64,000 nucleotides of DNA from Modestobacter altitudinis (GTDB lineage: Bacteria; Actinomycetota; Actinomycetes; Mycobacteriales; Geodermatophilaceae): positions 1 through 64,000 of the forward strand of contig NZ_SJEW01000008.1 of NCBI RefSeq assembly GCF_005930475.1, read 5' to 3'. Position 1 is the first letter of the stretch, and each line of letters starts with the position of its first letter. A program made the translations under genes and the position numbers. Positions 16,039-22,513 of this stretch are shown piece after piece. The notes beneath the pieces are model-generated. The model saw nothing but the letters and a program-made list of their open reading frames with translations, searched no databases and was not told the origin of the DNA.

Positions 16039-16902
16039 TCAGGTGGCGGGGTCCCGGTCGGGGAAGCGCGCCCGGGCCAGGGCGTAGACGCCGAACGCGG
16101 CGAACCCGACCGCGACGGCGGTGAGCAGCCACCGCCCGGTCGGCACGCCGGCGATCGCGTGCATCGCGCCGTCCAGCCCGGTCGCCGTCGACACGTCCTC
16201 GGTGGCCGCGGCGTAGACCAGCAGCCCACCGGAGACGGCGAAGGCGATGCCCTTGGCCACGTAGCCCACCGAGCCGATCCGCTCGATCAGCGGCTCCCAC
16301 CGGTCGGGGGCCGCGGCCAGGTCGACGTCTTTCATGAAGCCGCCGGTCAGCCCGCGCACCAGCGTGTACGTCCCGACGGCGGCCACCCCGACCCCGACCA
16401 GGACCACGGCCGCCGCTCCGCCGGGGATCTCCAGGGCCTCGTCGGTCAGCTCCCGGAACCGGTCGGCGGCGTCGTACTCGGCGCCCACGGCGAAGAAGAG
16501 CGCGGTGACCCCGAGGACCGCGTACACCGTGCCCTTGGCCCCGCACTTGGCGCAGACCACGGCGGTGCGCACCCGGCGGGCCGGCCGCAGCAGGCCGGTC
16601 CACACGCGCAGCACCTCACCGGCCTGCCACAGCGCGAGCGCCAGCATGCCCAGCCCGATCACCCACAGCAGCACCCGGCCGCCGGGGGAGCCGGCCACCG
16701 TCTGCAGCGCACCGGTCTGGTCGGCGTCCTCGGCGCGGGGACCGGCGGACCAGGCGACCCGGGAGGCGAGCCAGCCGATCAGCACGTGCAGGACGCCGTA
16801 GGCGACCAGGCCGACCCGGGCCAGGTGGGTGAGCACCGGGTGGTCGGTCACCTCGCGGGCGCGGGCGACGGCGTCGTGCACCCGTTGCAGGACGGCGGTC
16901 AC
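16039..16902 (-). CDS. DUF1206 membrane protein (downstream paralogue)
   Basis: A 287-residue membrane protein with three repeated units of two transmembrane helices, the hallmark of DUF1206. The unit motif recurs as LARVGLVAYGVLHVLIGWLA, KCGAKGTVYAVLGVTALFF and IGSVGYVAKGIAFAVSGGLL. The GTG at 16902 is the first acceptable start after the upstream stop at 16943; it lacks a strong ribosome site, so translation may depend on the upstream gene. The protein immediately upstream is a paralogue with the same plan, pointing to tandem duplication. The molecular function of DUF1206 is unknown. Confidence 0.8.
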   Translation of the reverse strand: MTAVLQRVHDAVARAREVTDHPVLTHLARVGLVAYGVLHVLIGWLASRVAWSAGPRAEDADQTGALQTVAGSPGGRVLLWVIGLGMLALALWQAGEVLRVWTGLLRPARRVRTAVVCAKCGAKGTVYAVLGVTALFFAVGAEYDAADRFRELTDEALEIPGGAAAVVLVGVGVAAVGTYTLVRGLTGGFMKDVDLAAAPDRWEPLIERIGSVGYVAKGIAFAVSGGLLVYAAATEDVSTATGLDGAMHAIAGVPTGRWLLTAVAVGFAAFGVYALARARFPDRDPAT

Positions 16903-16942: not shown

Positions 16943-17785
16943 TCAGGTGCGCTCGGGGTACCGGGCCCGGAAGAGGCAGAAGACGCCGAACGCCGCGATG
17001 CCCAACGCGACGACGGTGAGCAGCACCTTGCCGAACGGGGCGTCCAGCAGCGTCCGCATGGCGCCGTCCAGGCCACTGGCCTTCGCCGGGTCGAAGGTGA
17101 TCGCCGCCCAGCCGAGCAGCCCGCCCACGAGGGCGAGCGCGACCCCCTTCAGCGGGTACCCGACGAGGCCGAGCCGCTCGATCACCTGCTGCTGGCCCGC
17201 CGTGGCCTGCGCGGTGTCGATCTCCTCCATGAAGTGCTTCGTGATGCCCTTGTGCACGTGGTAGATGCCCACGCCGATGACCACCAGCGCGGCGAGGCCG
17301 ACCAGGAACCGGCCGGCCGGCCAGCTGAACACCCCGGCCACGGCCGACTGCTGCTGCTGCCCGCTCGACTGGCCGCCACCGGTGGCGAACCGGAAGGCGG
17401 TGACGGCGAGGAACAGGTACACGACGGTCTTGGCGACCGCCTTGGCGGTCTTCACGGCGGCCTTCTTCTTCGCGTCGCCGGAGCCGCGCAGCCGCGAGCG
17501 CTGCCGCAGCACCTCGGCCAGCTGCCAGAGGGCCAGCGCGACGAGCCCGATCGCCAGGACCCACAGCAGCCCCTTGCCGAACGGCTTCGAGGCGAGGGTG
17601 GCCATGGCGCCGGACTGGTCGGCCGAGCCGCCGCCCCCGCCCCCGCCCCAGGCCAGCTGCAGGGCCAGCCAGGCCACCAGCAGGTGGACGACGCCGTAGG
17701 CGATCAGCCCGACGCGGGCCAGGTCCTCCAACGCGTCGCTGTCGCCCGCCCGGTCGGCACTGGACGAGGTGCCCGATCTGGTCAC
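16943..17785 (-). CDS. DUF1206 membrane protein (upstream paralogue)
   Basis: A 280-residue membrane protein with the same three-unit DUF1206 layout as its downstream neighbour. Units are seen as LARVGLIAYGVVHLLVAWLA, the KTVVYLFLAVTAFRF segment and LGLVGYPLKGVALALVGGLL. It differs by a Gly-rich loop (seven glycines near residues 46-53), a Lys-rich cytoplasmic stretch (DAKKKAAVKTAKAVAKT) and a Gln-rich loop (SSGQQQQSA). The GTG at 17785 has AAGGGA upstream. It is first in a two-gene operon, with 40 bases before the next start. Function unknown. Confidence 0.82.
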   Translation of the reverse strand: MTRSGTSSSADRAGDSDALEDLARVGLIAYGVVHLLVAWLALQLAWGGGGGGGSADQSGAMATLASKPFGKGLLWVLAIGLVALALWQLAEVLRQRSRLRGSGDAKKKAAVKTAKAVAKTVVYLFLAVTAFRFATGGGQSSGQQQQSAVAGVFSWPAGRFLVGLAALVVIGVGIYHVHKGITKHFMEEIDTAQATAGQQQVIERLGLVGYPLKGVALALVGGLLGWAAITFDPAKASGLDGAMRTLLDAPFGKVLLTVVALGIAAFGVFCLFRARYPERT

Positions 17786-17974: not shown

Positions 17975-18622
17975 GTGACGAACGCCGTGACCGCCGGCCG
18001 GCTGGCCGGGACCCCCGCCGCCCCGCCCACGCCGCAGCAGGCCCGGTCGACCTGGCCGCGGATGGCCGCCCTCGGTGCCGCCCTGCTCGTGCTCGGTGTG
18101 CTGGCACTGACCTGGTCGGGGGTCGGGCCGCGGCTGCTGCTGGCGGCGCTGGGCCTGTTCGCCGTCGTCCGCGGCGTCGCGCTGCTCCGCAGCGCCCGCG
18201 CCGGTGAGGTCGAGCGGTCCGGCGCGGTCCTCGGCGCCGGTGCCGTCTGGGTGGGGCTCGTCCTCGCCGCACTGGGGCTGGTGTCGGCGACCACGGCCGG
18301 CTGGGGCCTCGTCGCCGCCGTCGTCCTGCTGCTGCCGGTGCTGGCCGCCGCGGTGACCGCCCGCCGCGCCGCGTGGGCCGGCGCCGCGGTCGCCGTCGCC
18401 GTCGCCGTCGCCGCCCTCGCGCTCGGGCTGCTCGCCGGCACCGACGCCCTGCTCTCGGCCGGGCGGGTCGTCGTCGGCGTCGTCGTGGCGGCGCTGGGGC
18501 TGGCCAACCTCGCCGGGGCCGCCGGCCTGGCCCGGATCGCCCGCCGGCCGGAGCCCGCGCCGGTGGCGGCCGGGTGCGGTGGCTGCGCCTGCGGCGCGGG
18601 GGGCTGCGGCGCGCTCGGCTGA
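17975..18622 (+). CDS. Multi-pass membrane protein with Cys/Gly-rich C-terminus
   Basis: A 215-residue protein with about six hydrophobic helices between residues 28 and 190 in an HdeD/DUF308-like pattern; the family assignment is tentative. The C-terminal 16 residues are GCGGCACGAGGCGALG, with four cysteines, a plausible metal-binding or membrane-interface tail. GTG at 17975 is backed by GGGGGAG about 9 bases upstream. The helices are extremely Ala/Val-rich and partly encoded by GTCGCC repeats near 18395-18420. It is divergent from the DUF1206 operon and precedes the zinc-finger gene by 154 bases. Function unknown. Confidence 0.65.
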   Translation: MTNAVTAGRLAGTPAAPPTPQQARSTWPRMAALGAALLVLGVLALTWSGVGPRLLLAALGLFAVVRGVALLRSARAGEVERSGAVLGAGAVWVGLVLAALGLVSATTAGWGLVAAVVLLLPVLAAAVTARRAAWAGAAVAVAVAVAALALGLLAGTDALLSAGRVVVGVVVAALGLANLAGAAGLARIARRPEPAPVAAGCGGCACGAGGCGALG

Positions 18623-18901: not shown

Positions 18902-18962
18902 CCCGCGACCGCGCGCGACGAGGCGCCGGTACGTGGGCGCCCGCAGGAGTGACCTGACCTCC

Positions 18963-18977
18963 CCGGGGTAACCCCGG
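18963..18977. promoter_or_regulatory. Palindrome just upstream of the catalase-like/SIR2 operon
   Basis: CCGGGGTAACCCCGG is a 7-bp perfect inverted repeat around a central A. It ends 5 bases before the ATG at 18983 and takes the place of a normal ribosome site. It is a candidate operator or translational control hairpin for the two-gene unit that follows. Confidence 0.4.
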
Positions 18978-18982
18978 CAGAC

Positions 18983-19669
18983 ATGGCAGACCTCATGGAC
19001 GCCGCCGGCCGGCTGGTCGCCGTCCCCATCGCCGCGCTGACCCGGGTCCGCGGCGCCAAGCCGATGCACCCCCGGGGCACCCTGTTCGCCGCGGTGCTGC
19101 AGCGTTCCGGGCTGGCCGCCGGCATCCCGTGGCTGGACGCCACCGGCCGCGACGACGTCCTGGTCCGGGTCTCCCGCGGCGCCGGGCTGCCCCCGGCGCT
19201 GCCGGACCTGCTCGGCTTCGCGCTCCGGGTGCCGGGGGAGCACCCGGTCGACCTGCTGCTGTCCTCCACCGGCCGCGGGCGGTGGAGCCGGCGGGTGCCG
19301 GTGCTGCGCCGCGACGCGGCGACCAGCTACGGCTCGATCATGGCCTACCGCAGCGCCGGCGGGCCGGTCTGGCTGGCCGCCGACCCCACCGGTGGCCCGC
19401 TGCCCACCGCCGTCGACCGGCTCGCCGCGGCCGCGCCCGGCCGGGTCGTCACGCTCTCCGCCGCGGTCGGTCGTGGACCGTGGGAGCCCTTCGGCACGGT
19501 GACGCTGGGGGAGCCGAGCACACCGCCGGACCCGGAGCTGCCCTTCGACGCCGTCCAGCACGCACCCCCGGGCCTGGTTGCCGACGGCCCGCTCGCCCGC
19601 TTCCGCCGTCCCGCGTACGCGGCGGCCCGCGCCGCCCGCGGGGTCGCGCTGGAGACCGGCCTGCGGTGA
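18983..19669 (+). CDS. Small catalase-fold (SrpA-like) protein
   Basis: A 228-residue protein that reads like a minimal heme catalase core. His29 in KPMHPRGTLF matches the distal His segment. Arg62 in VLVRVSRGAG and DLLGFALRV match the catalase strand usually written as VRFS...GFAVRF. The FRRPAYAAARAAR segment near the end might supply a proximal Tyr ligand. The typical catalase Asn and the RLFSY motif are not evident, so peroxidase or another activity is possible. Similar actinomycete proteins are often left hypothetical. Its stop overlaps the GTG of the SIR2 gene, so the two are translationally coupled. Heme binding is inferred, not shown. Confidence 0.5.
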   Translation: MADLMDAAGRLVAVPIAALTRVRGAKPMHPRGTLFAAVLQRSGLAAGIPWLDATGRDDVLVRVSRGAGLPPALPDLLGFALRVPGEHPVDLLLSSTGRGRWSRRVPVLRRDAATSYGSIMAYRSAGGPVWLAADPTGGPLPTAVDRLAAAAPGRVVTLSAAVGRGPWEPFGTVTLGEPSTPPDPELPFDAVQHAPPGLVADGPLARFRRPAYAAARAARGVALETGLR

Positions 19670-21225
19670 GCGGTCACGTCTTCGTCGTCGGCGCGGACCT
19701 CACCCGGCTGTCCTGCGACGACGTCGTCATCCCCACCGACCGGTCCCGGCGGGTGACCGCGAGCTGGGTCCCGCTGCTGCCGGCGGACGCCGTCCGGGCG
19801 GAGGACGAGGACGGGGCGTGCGTGGCCGGTACCTGGCGGGGCGAGGAACGGGTGCACGAGGTGCCCGGCTGCGGCGACCGGCGCGCCTGGCTGGTCGACA
19901 CCGTGGACCGCGACGGCTCCCGGGACGGGGAGCGGGGCCTCAGCTGGCTGCTCGACGGCGCCCGCGAGGTGCTGGCCGCGGTCGCCCGCCGCGAGGTCGC
20001 CGCACCGGCGCACGGGCGGGCCCGCCGGCTGGTCGGGCTCCCGGCGCTGGGCACCGGCTGGGGTGGGGCCGCCGGACAGCGCGGCGCACTGCTCCAGCAG
20101 CTGCTGCCGGTGCTCCGCCAGGCCGCCGACGAGCACGGCTACGACATCGCGCTGGTGCTCCGCCGGCCCAGCGACCTGGCCGCGGCCCAGCGGGTCCGGC
20201 GGGGCGACGGCGGTGGCTGGCGGTTGCCCGAGGCGCTGGACGGGCTCGCGGAGGACCTGGGCCGGCGGGCCCGCGAGGGGGAGCTGGCCGTCTTCCTCGG
20301 CGCCGGCGTCAGCGCCGCGGCCGGGCTGCCCACCTGGGAGCAGCTGCTCGCGGAGCTCGCCGTCCGCGCCGGCCTGGACGACGGCTCGCGCGCCGGGCTG
20401 TCCGGCCTCCCGCCGCAGGACGCCGCCGCCCTGCTGGCCCGGGTGCTCGGCCGTGACGAGCTGGCCGCCTACGTGCAGGAGCGCTTCGGCCCGGGCTCCT
20501 ACTCGCTGGCGCACGCGCTGGTCGCCGCGCTGCCGGTGCGCGAGTTCGTGACCACCAACTACGACCCGCTGGTGGAGCTGGCCGCCGCCGACATCGGCCG
20601 GCCGATGCGGGTGCTGCCCTTCGACGAGCCCGCGCCGGGCGTGCCCTGGCTGCTCAAGCTGCACGGCGACGCCGCCCACCCGGACAGCGTCGTGCTCACC
20701 CGCGAGCAGTACCTGGAGTTCGGTGACCACCGCAGCGCCCTGGCCGGCGTCCTGCAGTCGCTGCTGCTCACCCGGCACGTGCTGTTCGTCGGCACCTCGA
20801 TGCTGGACGACGACCTGATCCGGATCGCCCACCAGGTGCGCAGCGTGCTGCACGTGCCCGAGTCCGCGGACCGGCGGCGCAGCGGCACCGTGCTGGCGCT
20901 GCGCGAGGACCCGGTGCGCGCCCGGCTGTGGGAACGGGACGTCGAGACGGTGGCTATGACGAGCGCCGCGGAGGCCGCCGACGTCCCCCCGGCCGAGGCG
21001 GCCCGCCGGCTCGAGGTGCTGCTGGACCTGCTCGGCTGCCTCGCCAGCCGGCCGACCGGCTACCTGCTCGACCCGGCCTACCGCGGGCTGCTCGACGAGG
21101 AGGAGACCGCGCTGGCCGACGCGCTGACCGACGCCGCGGCGGCGCTCGGCGGCGGGGCGGGGCGGAGCTGGGCCGGCCAGGAGGTGCTGCGGCTGCTCCG
21201 CGAGCTCGGCCGGGGCGACGGCTGA
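19666..21225 (+). CDS. Macro-like/SIR2 fusion, putative NAD-consuming effector
   Basis: A 519-residue fusion. Residues about 4-175 resemble a divergent macro domain: GADLTRLSCDDVVIPTD looks like the ADP-ribose loop and LVGLPALGTGWGG like its second loop. Residues about 205-400 form a SIR2 Rossmann domain with LGAGVSAAAGLP (211-222), TTNYD (Asn298), LKLHGD (His333) and FVGTSMLDDDL. Asn and His at these places are the residues needed for NAD cleavage in known SIR2-domain enzymes. There is no zinc-ribbon insert of the deacetylase type. Residues beyond 400 form a helical tail. GTG at 19666 overlaps the previous stop as GTGA. An NADase or ADP-ribose-linked role is inferred. Confidence 0.65.
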   Translation: MSGHVFVVGADLTRLSCDDVVIPTDRSRRVTASWVPLLPADAVRAEDEDGACVAGTWRGEERVHEVPGCGDRRAWLVDTVDRDGSRDGERGLSWLLDGAREVLAAVARREVAAPAHGRARRLVGLPALGTGWGGAAGQRGALLQQLLPVLRQAADEHGYDIALVLRRPSDLAAAQRVRRGDGGGWRLPEALDGLAEDLGRRAREGELAVFLGAGVSAAAGLPTWEQLLAELAVRAGLDDGSRAGLSGLPPQDAAALLARVLGRDELAAYVQERFGPGSYSLAHALVAALPVREFVTTNYDPLVELAAADIGRPMRVLPFDEPAPGVPWLLKLHGDAAHPDSVVLTREQYLEFGDHRSALAGVLQSLLLTRHVLFVGTSMLDDDLIRIAHQVRSVLHVPESADRRRSGTVLALREDPVRARLWERDVETVAMTSAAEAADVPPAEAARRLEVLLDLLGCLASRPTGYLLDPAYRGLLDEEETALADALTDAAAALGGGAGRSWAGQEVLRLLRELGRGDG

Positions 21226-21262
21226 CCGTTTCCCGCACCGCCCGGCGGGCAGTGCACACCGC

Positions 21263-22513
21263 ATGCGCCGGCCCCGGTTCGACCAGTCCCTCCCCATGCT
21301 CGCCAAGGGCTACGCCTGGCTGCCCGACCGCCGGCGCACCGCGGGCCGGGACACCGTGCAGACCCGGCTGCTGGGGGTGCGCCGGACGCTCGGGGTGGAG
21401 GGCCCGGCCGGGGCGCGGTTCCTCTACGACGAGGACCACGTCCGGCGCAGCGGCGCCCTCCCCGAGCCGGTGGTCAGCACCCTGTTCGGCCACGGTGCGG
21501 TGCACACGCTGGACGGCGAGCCGCACCGGGTGCGCAAGGCGATGTTCGTGCACCTGCTGATGGACAGCGGCACCGCGGACCTCGTCGACCGGGTCGGCGC
21601 GGCCTGGGACGACGCCGTGCCGCGCTGGGCGCACCAGCCGCAGGTCGTGCTCATGGACGAGGCGGCCCGGGTGCTCACCCGGGGCGTGTGCGACTGGGCC
21701 GGCGTCCCGGTGTCCGACGAGGAGCTGCCCGCCCTCGCCGCTGACCTGACCACGCTGGTCGACGGCTTCGCCACCGGCGCGCCACGGCACTGGCGGGCCC
21801 GGCGGGTGCGGCAGCGCCGTGAGGCGTGGCTGGCCGGCATCGTCGACGCGCTGCGCGCCGGCGAACGGACCGCGGCGGCCGGCTCGGTCCTCGACGTCGT
21901 CGCCACCCACCGCGACTCCGAGGGCGAGCTCCTCGAGCCGCGGGTGGCCGCCGTCGAGGTGCTCAACGTCATCCGGCCCACCGTGGCGGTCAGCTGGTTC
22001 ATCGGCTTCGCCGCGCACGCGCTGCACCGCTGGCCGGCCGACCGCGAGCGGCTGCGCGCCGGGGGCGCCTACGCCACCGCGTTCGCCCACGAGGTGCGCC
22101 GCTACTACCCGTTCGCGCCGTTCATCGGCGGCCGGGCACCCCGGGACGTCGAGTGGGACGGCGAGCGGGTGCCGGCCGGCTCGATGGTGCTGCTGGACCT
22201 CTTCGGCCAGTCCCACGACCCCACGCTGTTCCCCGAGCCCTACGCCTTCCGCCCCGAGCGGTTCCTGACCGGGGACGGCGACCGGGTCCGCGACATCGGT
22301 CCGTGGGAGCTGGTGCCGCAGGGCGCCGGCGACCCGCGCACCGGGCACCGCTGCCCGGGGGAGGACGTGACGGTCGCGCTGCTGGCGTCGCTCGCCGTCC
22401 GGCTGGCCCGGCTGGGGTACCGGCTGCCCGACCAGGACCTGACCATCTCGCTGCGCCGGATCCCGGCTCGACCGGCCAGCGGGGTGGTGCTCAGCGACGT
22501 CCGGCCGGGCTGA
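21263..22513 (+). CDS. CYP152-type peroxygenase cytochrome P450
   Basis: A 416-residue P450 close to the CYP152 peroxygenases, which use hydrogen peroxide directly to hydroxylate or decarboxylate fatty acids. The heme ligand is Cys364 in GHRCPGEDV. In place of the usual acid-alcohol pair in the I helix there is Arg238-Pro239 in NVIRPTVAVSW; in CYP152 enzymes this Arg binds the substrate carboxylate. The N-terminus (FDQSLPMLAKGYAWL) also fits the family. ATG at 21263 is used; another ATG lies 33 bases downstream. It follows the SIR2 gene by 37 bases on the same strand, beside a catalase-like protein. Confidence 0.85.
   Translation: MRRPRFDQSLPMLAKGYAWLPDRRRTAGRDTVQTRLLGVRRTLGVEGPAGARFLYDEDHVRRSGALPEPVVSTLFGHGAVHTLDGEPHRVRKAMFVHLLMDSGTADLVDRVGAAWDDAVPRWAHQPQVVLMDEAARVLTRGVCDWAGVPVSDEELPALAADLTTLVDGFATGAPRHWRARRVRQRREAWLAGIVDALRAGERTAAAGSVLDVVATHRDSEGELLEPRVAAVEVLNVIRPTVAVSWFIGFAAHALHRWPADRERLRAGGAYATAFAHEVRRYYPFAPFIGGRAPRDVEWDGERVPAGSMVLLDLFGQSHDPTLFPEPYAFRPERFLTGDGDRVRDIGPWELVPQGAGDPRTGHRCPGEDVTVALLASLAVRLARLGYRLPDQDLTISLRRIPARPASGVVLSDVRPG

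Follow-up and report, generated by a model that had tools for sequence, protein, structure and literature searches.

Most of what is known about SIR2 NADases of the ThsA type concerns phage defense, in which they act as suicide effectors. What, then, does such a domain do in a 64-kb stretch of Modestobacter altitudinis DNA (the window, i.e., the whole of the sequence analyzed), where it is encoded directly after a small catalase-like protein, and does that neighbor have a part in its function? Both genes lie on the forward strand. The first (P0001, positions 18983 to 19669) encodes 228 residues with the motifs KPMHPRG (residues 26 to 32), VLVRVSRGAG (residues 59 to 68), and LLGFALRV (residues 76 to 83). 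The second (P0002, positions 19666 to 21225) has a GTG start and encodes a 519-residue fusion with GADLTRL (residues 9 to 15) and LPALGTGWGG (residues 125 to 134) in its N-terminal part, and the sequence common to the two genes is GTGA (positions 19666 to 19669). Reexamination of the open reading frames and translations found the lengths, motifs, and overlap just as in the original prediction, which had taken the pair for one unit. Its folds and SIR2 residues hold; its joining of the two genes into a single sensing and response unit is not supported.

The middle of P0002 (approximately residues 196 to 396, positions 20251 to 20853) is a SIR2 domain of the ThsA/KomC type, closest to ThsA, KomC, and DSR2 by both sequence and fold. 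Pfam SIR2_2 matched with an E value of 5e-27, and the best PADLOC model was ThsA (E 3.5e-30, residues 196 to 395). A phmmer search of the PDB placed ThsA chains at the top (7uxt, E 9.5e-19), followed by KomC-type and DSR2 chains, and the 50 Foldseek matches listed for an AlphaFold2 model of the whole protein (mean pLDDT 84.0) were ThsA, KomC/HAM-SIR2, and DSR2 entries. Asn298 and His333, picked out beforehand as the residues expected for NAD cleavage, are present at these positions and align with the active-site residues of the ThsA TTNYD and HGD motifs. Together with Lys331, Gly334, and Asp381, they are invariant in all 68 distinct homologues (53 from the main clade, to which the window's copy belongs, and 15 others, from a set of 83 rows that included some duplicates). 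The zinc site of four cysteines that canonical sirtuin deacylases have in this domain is absent from P0002: its only cysteines are at residues 17, 52, 69, and 458, none of which is inside this domain. The C-terminal SLOG/STALD domain of Thoeris ThsA was not found in P0002 either, the matches to the ThsA model and chains ending at about residue 396 to 405. The region that follows (approximately residues 397 to 519, positions 20854 to 21222) is mostly helical, and the libraries searched gave nothing there beyond SIR2. The sequence DRxQxQRxG ends 39 of 51 called fusion proteins (loci L052 to L092); the window's P0002 lacks this ending.

Residues 1 to approximately 180 of P0002 (positions 19666 to 20205) are a diverged macro domain, an assignment settled by profile and fold searches where Pfam alone would have failed: Pfam Macro gave no match at its cutoff in P0002, nor did it match in any of 21 genomes of the genus. 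A profile of 20 homologous N termini gave 12 matches, of which the top five are entries named macroH2A (the best, 7ny6, with an E value of 7.1e-9); TTHA0132, which we take to be a macro protein, came sixth (E 0.083), and the remaining six are unrelated (E 0.15 or worse). Profile-profile comparison aligned these N termini with 20 Pfam Macro proteins over 157 columns (E 3.1e-6, probability 88%), as against E 0.05 or worse for 16 other family alignments. A separate model of residues 1 to 190 (mean pLDDT 83.9) gave 50 listed Foldseek matches, the best with an E value of 1.1e-6, which are macro domains by name except for a few, presumably macro scaffolds or macroH2A fusions. The macro-like appearance first read from short motifs, which a lack of structural matches would have spoken against, is thus borne out. 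The Gly-rich loop of MacroD-type hydrolases had no counterpart in the domain, either by alignment or by profile comparison, and the GTGxGG loop is mostly retained (Gly129 in 68, Gly131 in 65, and Gly134 in 66 of the 68 distinct homologues), from which we infer that it binds its ligand rather than hydrolyzes it. The macro-SIR2 architecture as such has probably appeared in print before, since a figure legend of PMC12700824 names macro as an additional domain of SIR2-like proteins; a literature search for Geodermatophilus together with sirtuin found nothing.

As a single sequence, P0001 had no match in Pfam, PADLOC, or the PDB. A profile of 32 of its homologues (33 to 78% identical to it) was best matched in the PDB by 3e4w (E 1.8e-9), which we take to be a mycobacterial catalase-related protein; 3e4w has 320 residues as against 228, and the strong match is limited to the N-terminal part. 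Of the other 33 matches, 31 were catalases (E 2.6e-4 to 0.24). Invariant throughout the family (32/32) are His29, Gly32, Arg62, Ser64, Pro70, Asp75, Gly78, Asp90, Leu158, Arg208, and Tyr212, which presumably supply the distal His and the proximal Arg-x3-Tyr of a catalase heme site. Pfam Catalase matched 0 of the 32 members at E values up to 1, and hhalign against 14 full catalases aligned residues 26 to 92 only (E 8.6e-4, probability 23.5%), a weaker result than that of the PDB profile search. The PDB matches and the conserved heme-site residues uphold the catalase fold originally proposed and identify P0001 as a putative minimal, heme-type member of that fold.

Whether the two genes belong together was examined by gene order in 49 contigs of relatives plus the window (50 loci). 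The gene after the fusion encodes a cytochrome P450 in 41 of 50 loci, with a median gap of 40 bp (positions 21263 to 22513, forward strand, in the window). The gene before it belongs in 35 of 45 loci to a family, c2, that is membrane-type by eye and without a Pfam match and is the usual upstream neighbor in other genera (positions 17975 to 18622, forward strand, in the window); P0001 holds that place in 5 of 45. In the loci examined, P0001 and the fusion adjoin only in the window's genus group, Modestobacter (nine genomes), with the 4-bp overlap in eight and a 9-bp gap in the ninth (G004), so that the search for the pair across actinomycetes gave no sign of a conserved two-gene unit. In two loci (L051:7953 and L094:7911) the overlap depends on an earlier start, the fusion there opening with short (V/M)SGHxPVVGG repeats that precede the usual start and span the gap to the P0001 overlap. 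Three other genomes have both genes on different contigs, and in other Geodermatophilaceae the fusion usually lies without P0001 directly before the P450 gene. Farther upstream in the window, two adjoining genes of one family (positions 16039 to 16902 and 16943 to 17785; DUF1206 in the one scanned) are kept here in most loci.

Within Modestobacter, the order is c2-P0001-fusion-P450 in the nine genomes, c2-P0001-P450 in three (G013, G016, and G021), c2-P450 in four (G001, G005, G008, and G018), and c2-other-P450 in one (G017), a tally that leaves out G002, G003, G011, G015, G019, and G022. Because other genera have c2-fusion-P450, the simplest reading of these orders is that the fusion was lost within Modestobacter, while P0001 seems to be a local addition beside it in that lineage. 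Among 10 neighbors of the locus scanned with PADLOC, there was no TIR partner or ThsB, and only a UvrD-type helicase-like gene matched, weakly.

The distribution of the fusion was followed in 96 complete genomes of the family, a main-clade copy being one of 71% identity or more. It was present in 59 and absent from 37: Modestobacter had it in 9 of 18 genomes, four further genus groups had it in 25 of 26, 18 of 23, 6 of 11, and 1 of 3, and the remaining 15 genomes had none. Three of the 59 copies are interrupted (G064, G066, and G077, the last of which may be an assembly matter), and that of G086 is cut by a contig end. Across the phylum, 7 of 396 genomes, including the window's own, had a match at an E value of 1e-20 or better, with at most three candidates scored per genome in the rows listed. 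Three of the 49 relative loci (L095, L096, and L097) carry labels outside Actinomycetota, and one is a MAG labeled Frankiales; upstream of the homologue in the Acidobacteria-labeled MAG is an ORF (L095:16-1218) that is photolyase-like by eye.

Where present, the main clade keeps to a single locus in all the genera seen. For six loci from the window's genus group, pairwise dN/dS was 0.12 to 0.34 for the fusion, 0.14 to 0.34 for the P450 gene, and 0.24 to 0.69 for P0001; like the neighboring P450 gene, the main-clade fusion is under purifying selection, with no sign of fast diversification. Among 72,556 plasmid records, 220 matched P0002, none covering 80% of it and all at <60% identity, the 20 listed corresponding to the SIR2 region. 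One of 50,697 phages matched, again in the SIR2 region, with none full-length, and the viral contigs gave no match. A mobile defense gene was accordingly rejected for the window's clade, no full-length copy having been found in the three sets searched (plasmids, phages, and viral contigs).

A further pointer to function lies upstream of the genes. The box GGG[TC]A starts 15 to 17 nt before the start codon in 34 of 39 fusion genes (scanned from 13 to 19 nt; seven partial or distant entries were left out, as were five loci from the window's genus group, in which the fusion comes second), precedes 36 of 43 P450 genes, and is found in 12 of 415 controls from 11 other families on the same contigs. 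The Fisher P value for the fusion box against the controls, 9e-36, overstates the case because related genomes are not independent. The −35 half is weak: of the 34 fusion genes with the box, 23 have GTT 14 to 21 nt before it. The box precedes 1 of 14 distant fusion homologues. Streptomyces SigB-type promoters are described in PMC8346170 as having, in the −10 region, a GGG that hardly varies and A as the fifth base, and mycobacterial SigF promoters in PMC7693655 as GGWWT-N16-17-GGGTAY; by this likeness we infer that the box before the main-clade fusion genes is a general-stress promoter element of the SigB/SigF type. Since the P450 genes carry the same stress-type box, the two genes may share one regulon. 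In the window, the P450 gene is preceded on the forward strand by a promoter-like element at positions 21228 to 21252 (GTTTCC at 21228 to 21233 and GGGCAG at 21247 to 21252). P0001 has a SigB/SigF-like element on the same strand at positions 18949 to 18971 (GTGACC at 18949 to 18954 and GGGTAA at 18966 to 18971), whose 11-nt spacer falls short of the published spacer lengths. In P0001 genes heading the pair the box is looser, with the strict form in two of five (12 sequences listed).

The 15-bp palindrome CCGGGGTAACCCCGG lies, as originally reported, at positions 18963 to 18977, five bases before the P0001 ATG, and overlaps the conserved −10-like box. It was rejected as an operator and judged a chance palindrome, because the window holds 26 15-mers of that kind (perfect 7-bp arms, 1-nt center) and the perfect form is not preserved in the relatives compared.

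Seven Geodermatophilaceae genomes encode a full-length P0002 homologue at 41 to 43% identity, a sister clade whose surroundings are of another kind. In a FastTree tree, the main clade had a support of 0.97 and six sister-clade members one of 0.99. ARPP-1 lies ≤5 kb from the sister-clade homologue in all seven genomes and occurs in 18 of 92 family genomes, 11 of which, the window's included, are without that homologue; in the window's genome, the ARPP-1 gene is read in two pieces (G000:C76:6845-7652), away from the fusion. Of 12 distant loci, 7 have an ADP-ribosylglycohydrolase-phosphatase family, 1 has NrtR-Nudix and ARPP-1 without that family, and 4 have none of these, five representatives having been named by Pfam and the rest assigned by clustering. 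Some sister-clade loci adjoin DruE-like, PDC-S37/Hhe-like, UvrD/PD-(D/E)XK, and NERD-helicase proteins; L127, L128, and L133 to L138 place the sister clade within ARG/ARPP/NrtR-Nudix neighborhoods, some beside defense-type genes. Section 3.8 of PMC9503650 describes ARG-centered systems with ARPP as likely antiviral and states that the search for them selected systems to which no ARTs or sirtuins are coupled. The sister clade adjoins the same gene families, in contrast to that choice of systems without sirtuins, whereas the window's clade lies outside such a neighborhood. The genomic context thus points to a role of the sister clade in ADP-ribose-centered conflict.

We put at approximately 0.45 the probability that P0002 is an NAD-cleaving enzyme under stress regulation whose activity is gated by a ligand of the ADP-ribose type, that it is related to ThsA without belonging to Thoeris, and that P0001 is separate from it. 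A SigB/SigF-type promoter would drive the chromosomal fusion gene in Geodermatophilaceae; the N-terminal macro-fold domain would bind ADP-ribose or a related nucleotide and gate the SIR2 active site, where Asn298 and His333 would cleave NAD+. The enzyme would then lower NAD+ or make an ADP-ribose product, probably under stress rather than on phage infection, because the gene is chromosomal, stably inherited, and under a stress-type promoter. P0001 would have entered the transcription unit within Modestobacter, where it would give the shared transcript a capacity for peroxide handling. Counting for this reading are the ThsA-like SIR2 domain, the invariant residues, the macro fold, the fixed locus, the box, the low dN/dS, and the lack of mobile copies. 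Counting against it are the weak −35 half, the short spacer in the window, the strict box in so few P0001 genes and distant homologues, and the sister clade's place among defense-type genes; the absence of the fusion from 37 of 96 genomes and its interruption in 3 of 59 also fit a costly or optional effector.

Known systems resemble parts of this scheme. SIR2-SLOG ThsA, as described in PMC11204291, depletes NAD+ once activated by cyclic ADP-ribose isomers. It has the same SIR2 Asn and His and likewise fuses SIR2 to a nucleotide-binding type of domain, but its SLOG domain is C-terminal whereas the macro domain of P0002 is N-terminal, and the P0002 locus is fixed, of a stress type, and without a TIR partner among the 10 neighbors; with neither SLOG nor ThsB, membership in Thoeris was rejected. 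The TM-macro ThsA described in the same source is an effector that likewise has a macro domain, of a type that binds ADP-ribose, but it is presented there with transmembrane segments and without a SIR2 domain.

An anti-phage effector, in which an infection-made ADP-ribose-type signal binds the macro domain, SIR2 depletes NAD+, and the infection is aborted, as in ThsA with the sensor at the other end, has its appeal in the defense NADases that are the closest SIR2 relatives, in the DruE-like and other defense-type neighbors of the sister clade, and in the patchy loss of the fusion in the window's genus. Against this stand the single locus of the main clade across genera, purifying selection, the stress-type box, the lack of a TIR partner or clear defense gene among the 10 neighbors, and the absence of full-length copies from plasmids, phages, and viral contigs, so that we consider it unlikely. 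For the window's clade, a role in stress physiology fits better than phage defense given the promoter, the fixed locus, and the purifying selection, and the gene for P0002 appears to be a stress gene, stably inherited and with relatives among phage-defense enzymes.

The stress-type promoter would also suit a macro-sirtuin writer and reader or eraser, like the SirTM/Zn-Macro pairs and the fungal fusions: as part of a stress response, SIR2 would attach ADP-ribose to a target, and the macro domain would bind that mark or take it off; linked macro and sirtuin proteins tied to oxidative stress are described in PMC11490716. SirTM enzymes, however, are described there as having Gln for the key His, whereas the family of P0002 keeps His333 in 68/68 distinct sequences, which led us to reject SirTM membership; P0002 also has a cysteine-free SIR2 domain, the hydrolase-type macro loop is absent as well, and this reading is less probable still. 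Last comes the redox-sensing NADase unit of the original prediction, in which the catalase-fold protein would sense peroxide and control the SIR2 enzyme. It is in keeping with the 4-bp overlap in eight of the nine genomes with the pair and with the catalase fold and heme-site residues of P0001. Nevertheless, P0001 seldom precedes the fusion, stands at the same place without it in three genomes of the window's genus, and has relatives in 56 of 296 class genomes against strong fusion matches in 7 of 396 phylum genomes; we hold it to be very improbable.

The reading of P0002 as a stress-regulated, ligand-gated NAD-cleaving enzyme may be carried one step further, with considerable doubt: a ThsA-type NAD+-depleting enzyme may have moved from phage defense into the general stress response of the family as a sigma-induced NAD+ "fuse," its macro domain sensing ADP-ribose-type products, with the sister clade still in ADP-ribose-centered defense islands. 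If true, this would link sirtuins with the predicted ARG/ARPP ADP-ribose systems, whose definition excluded sirtuins, and would put an NAD-cleaving module of the defense type at the service of everyday stress physiology in soil bacteria that are very hardy.
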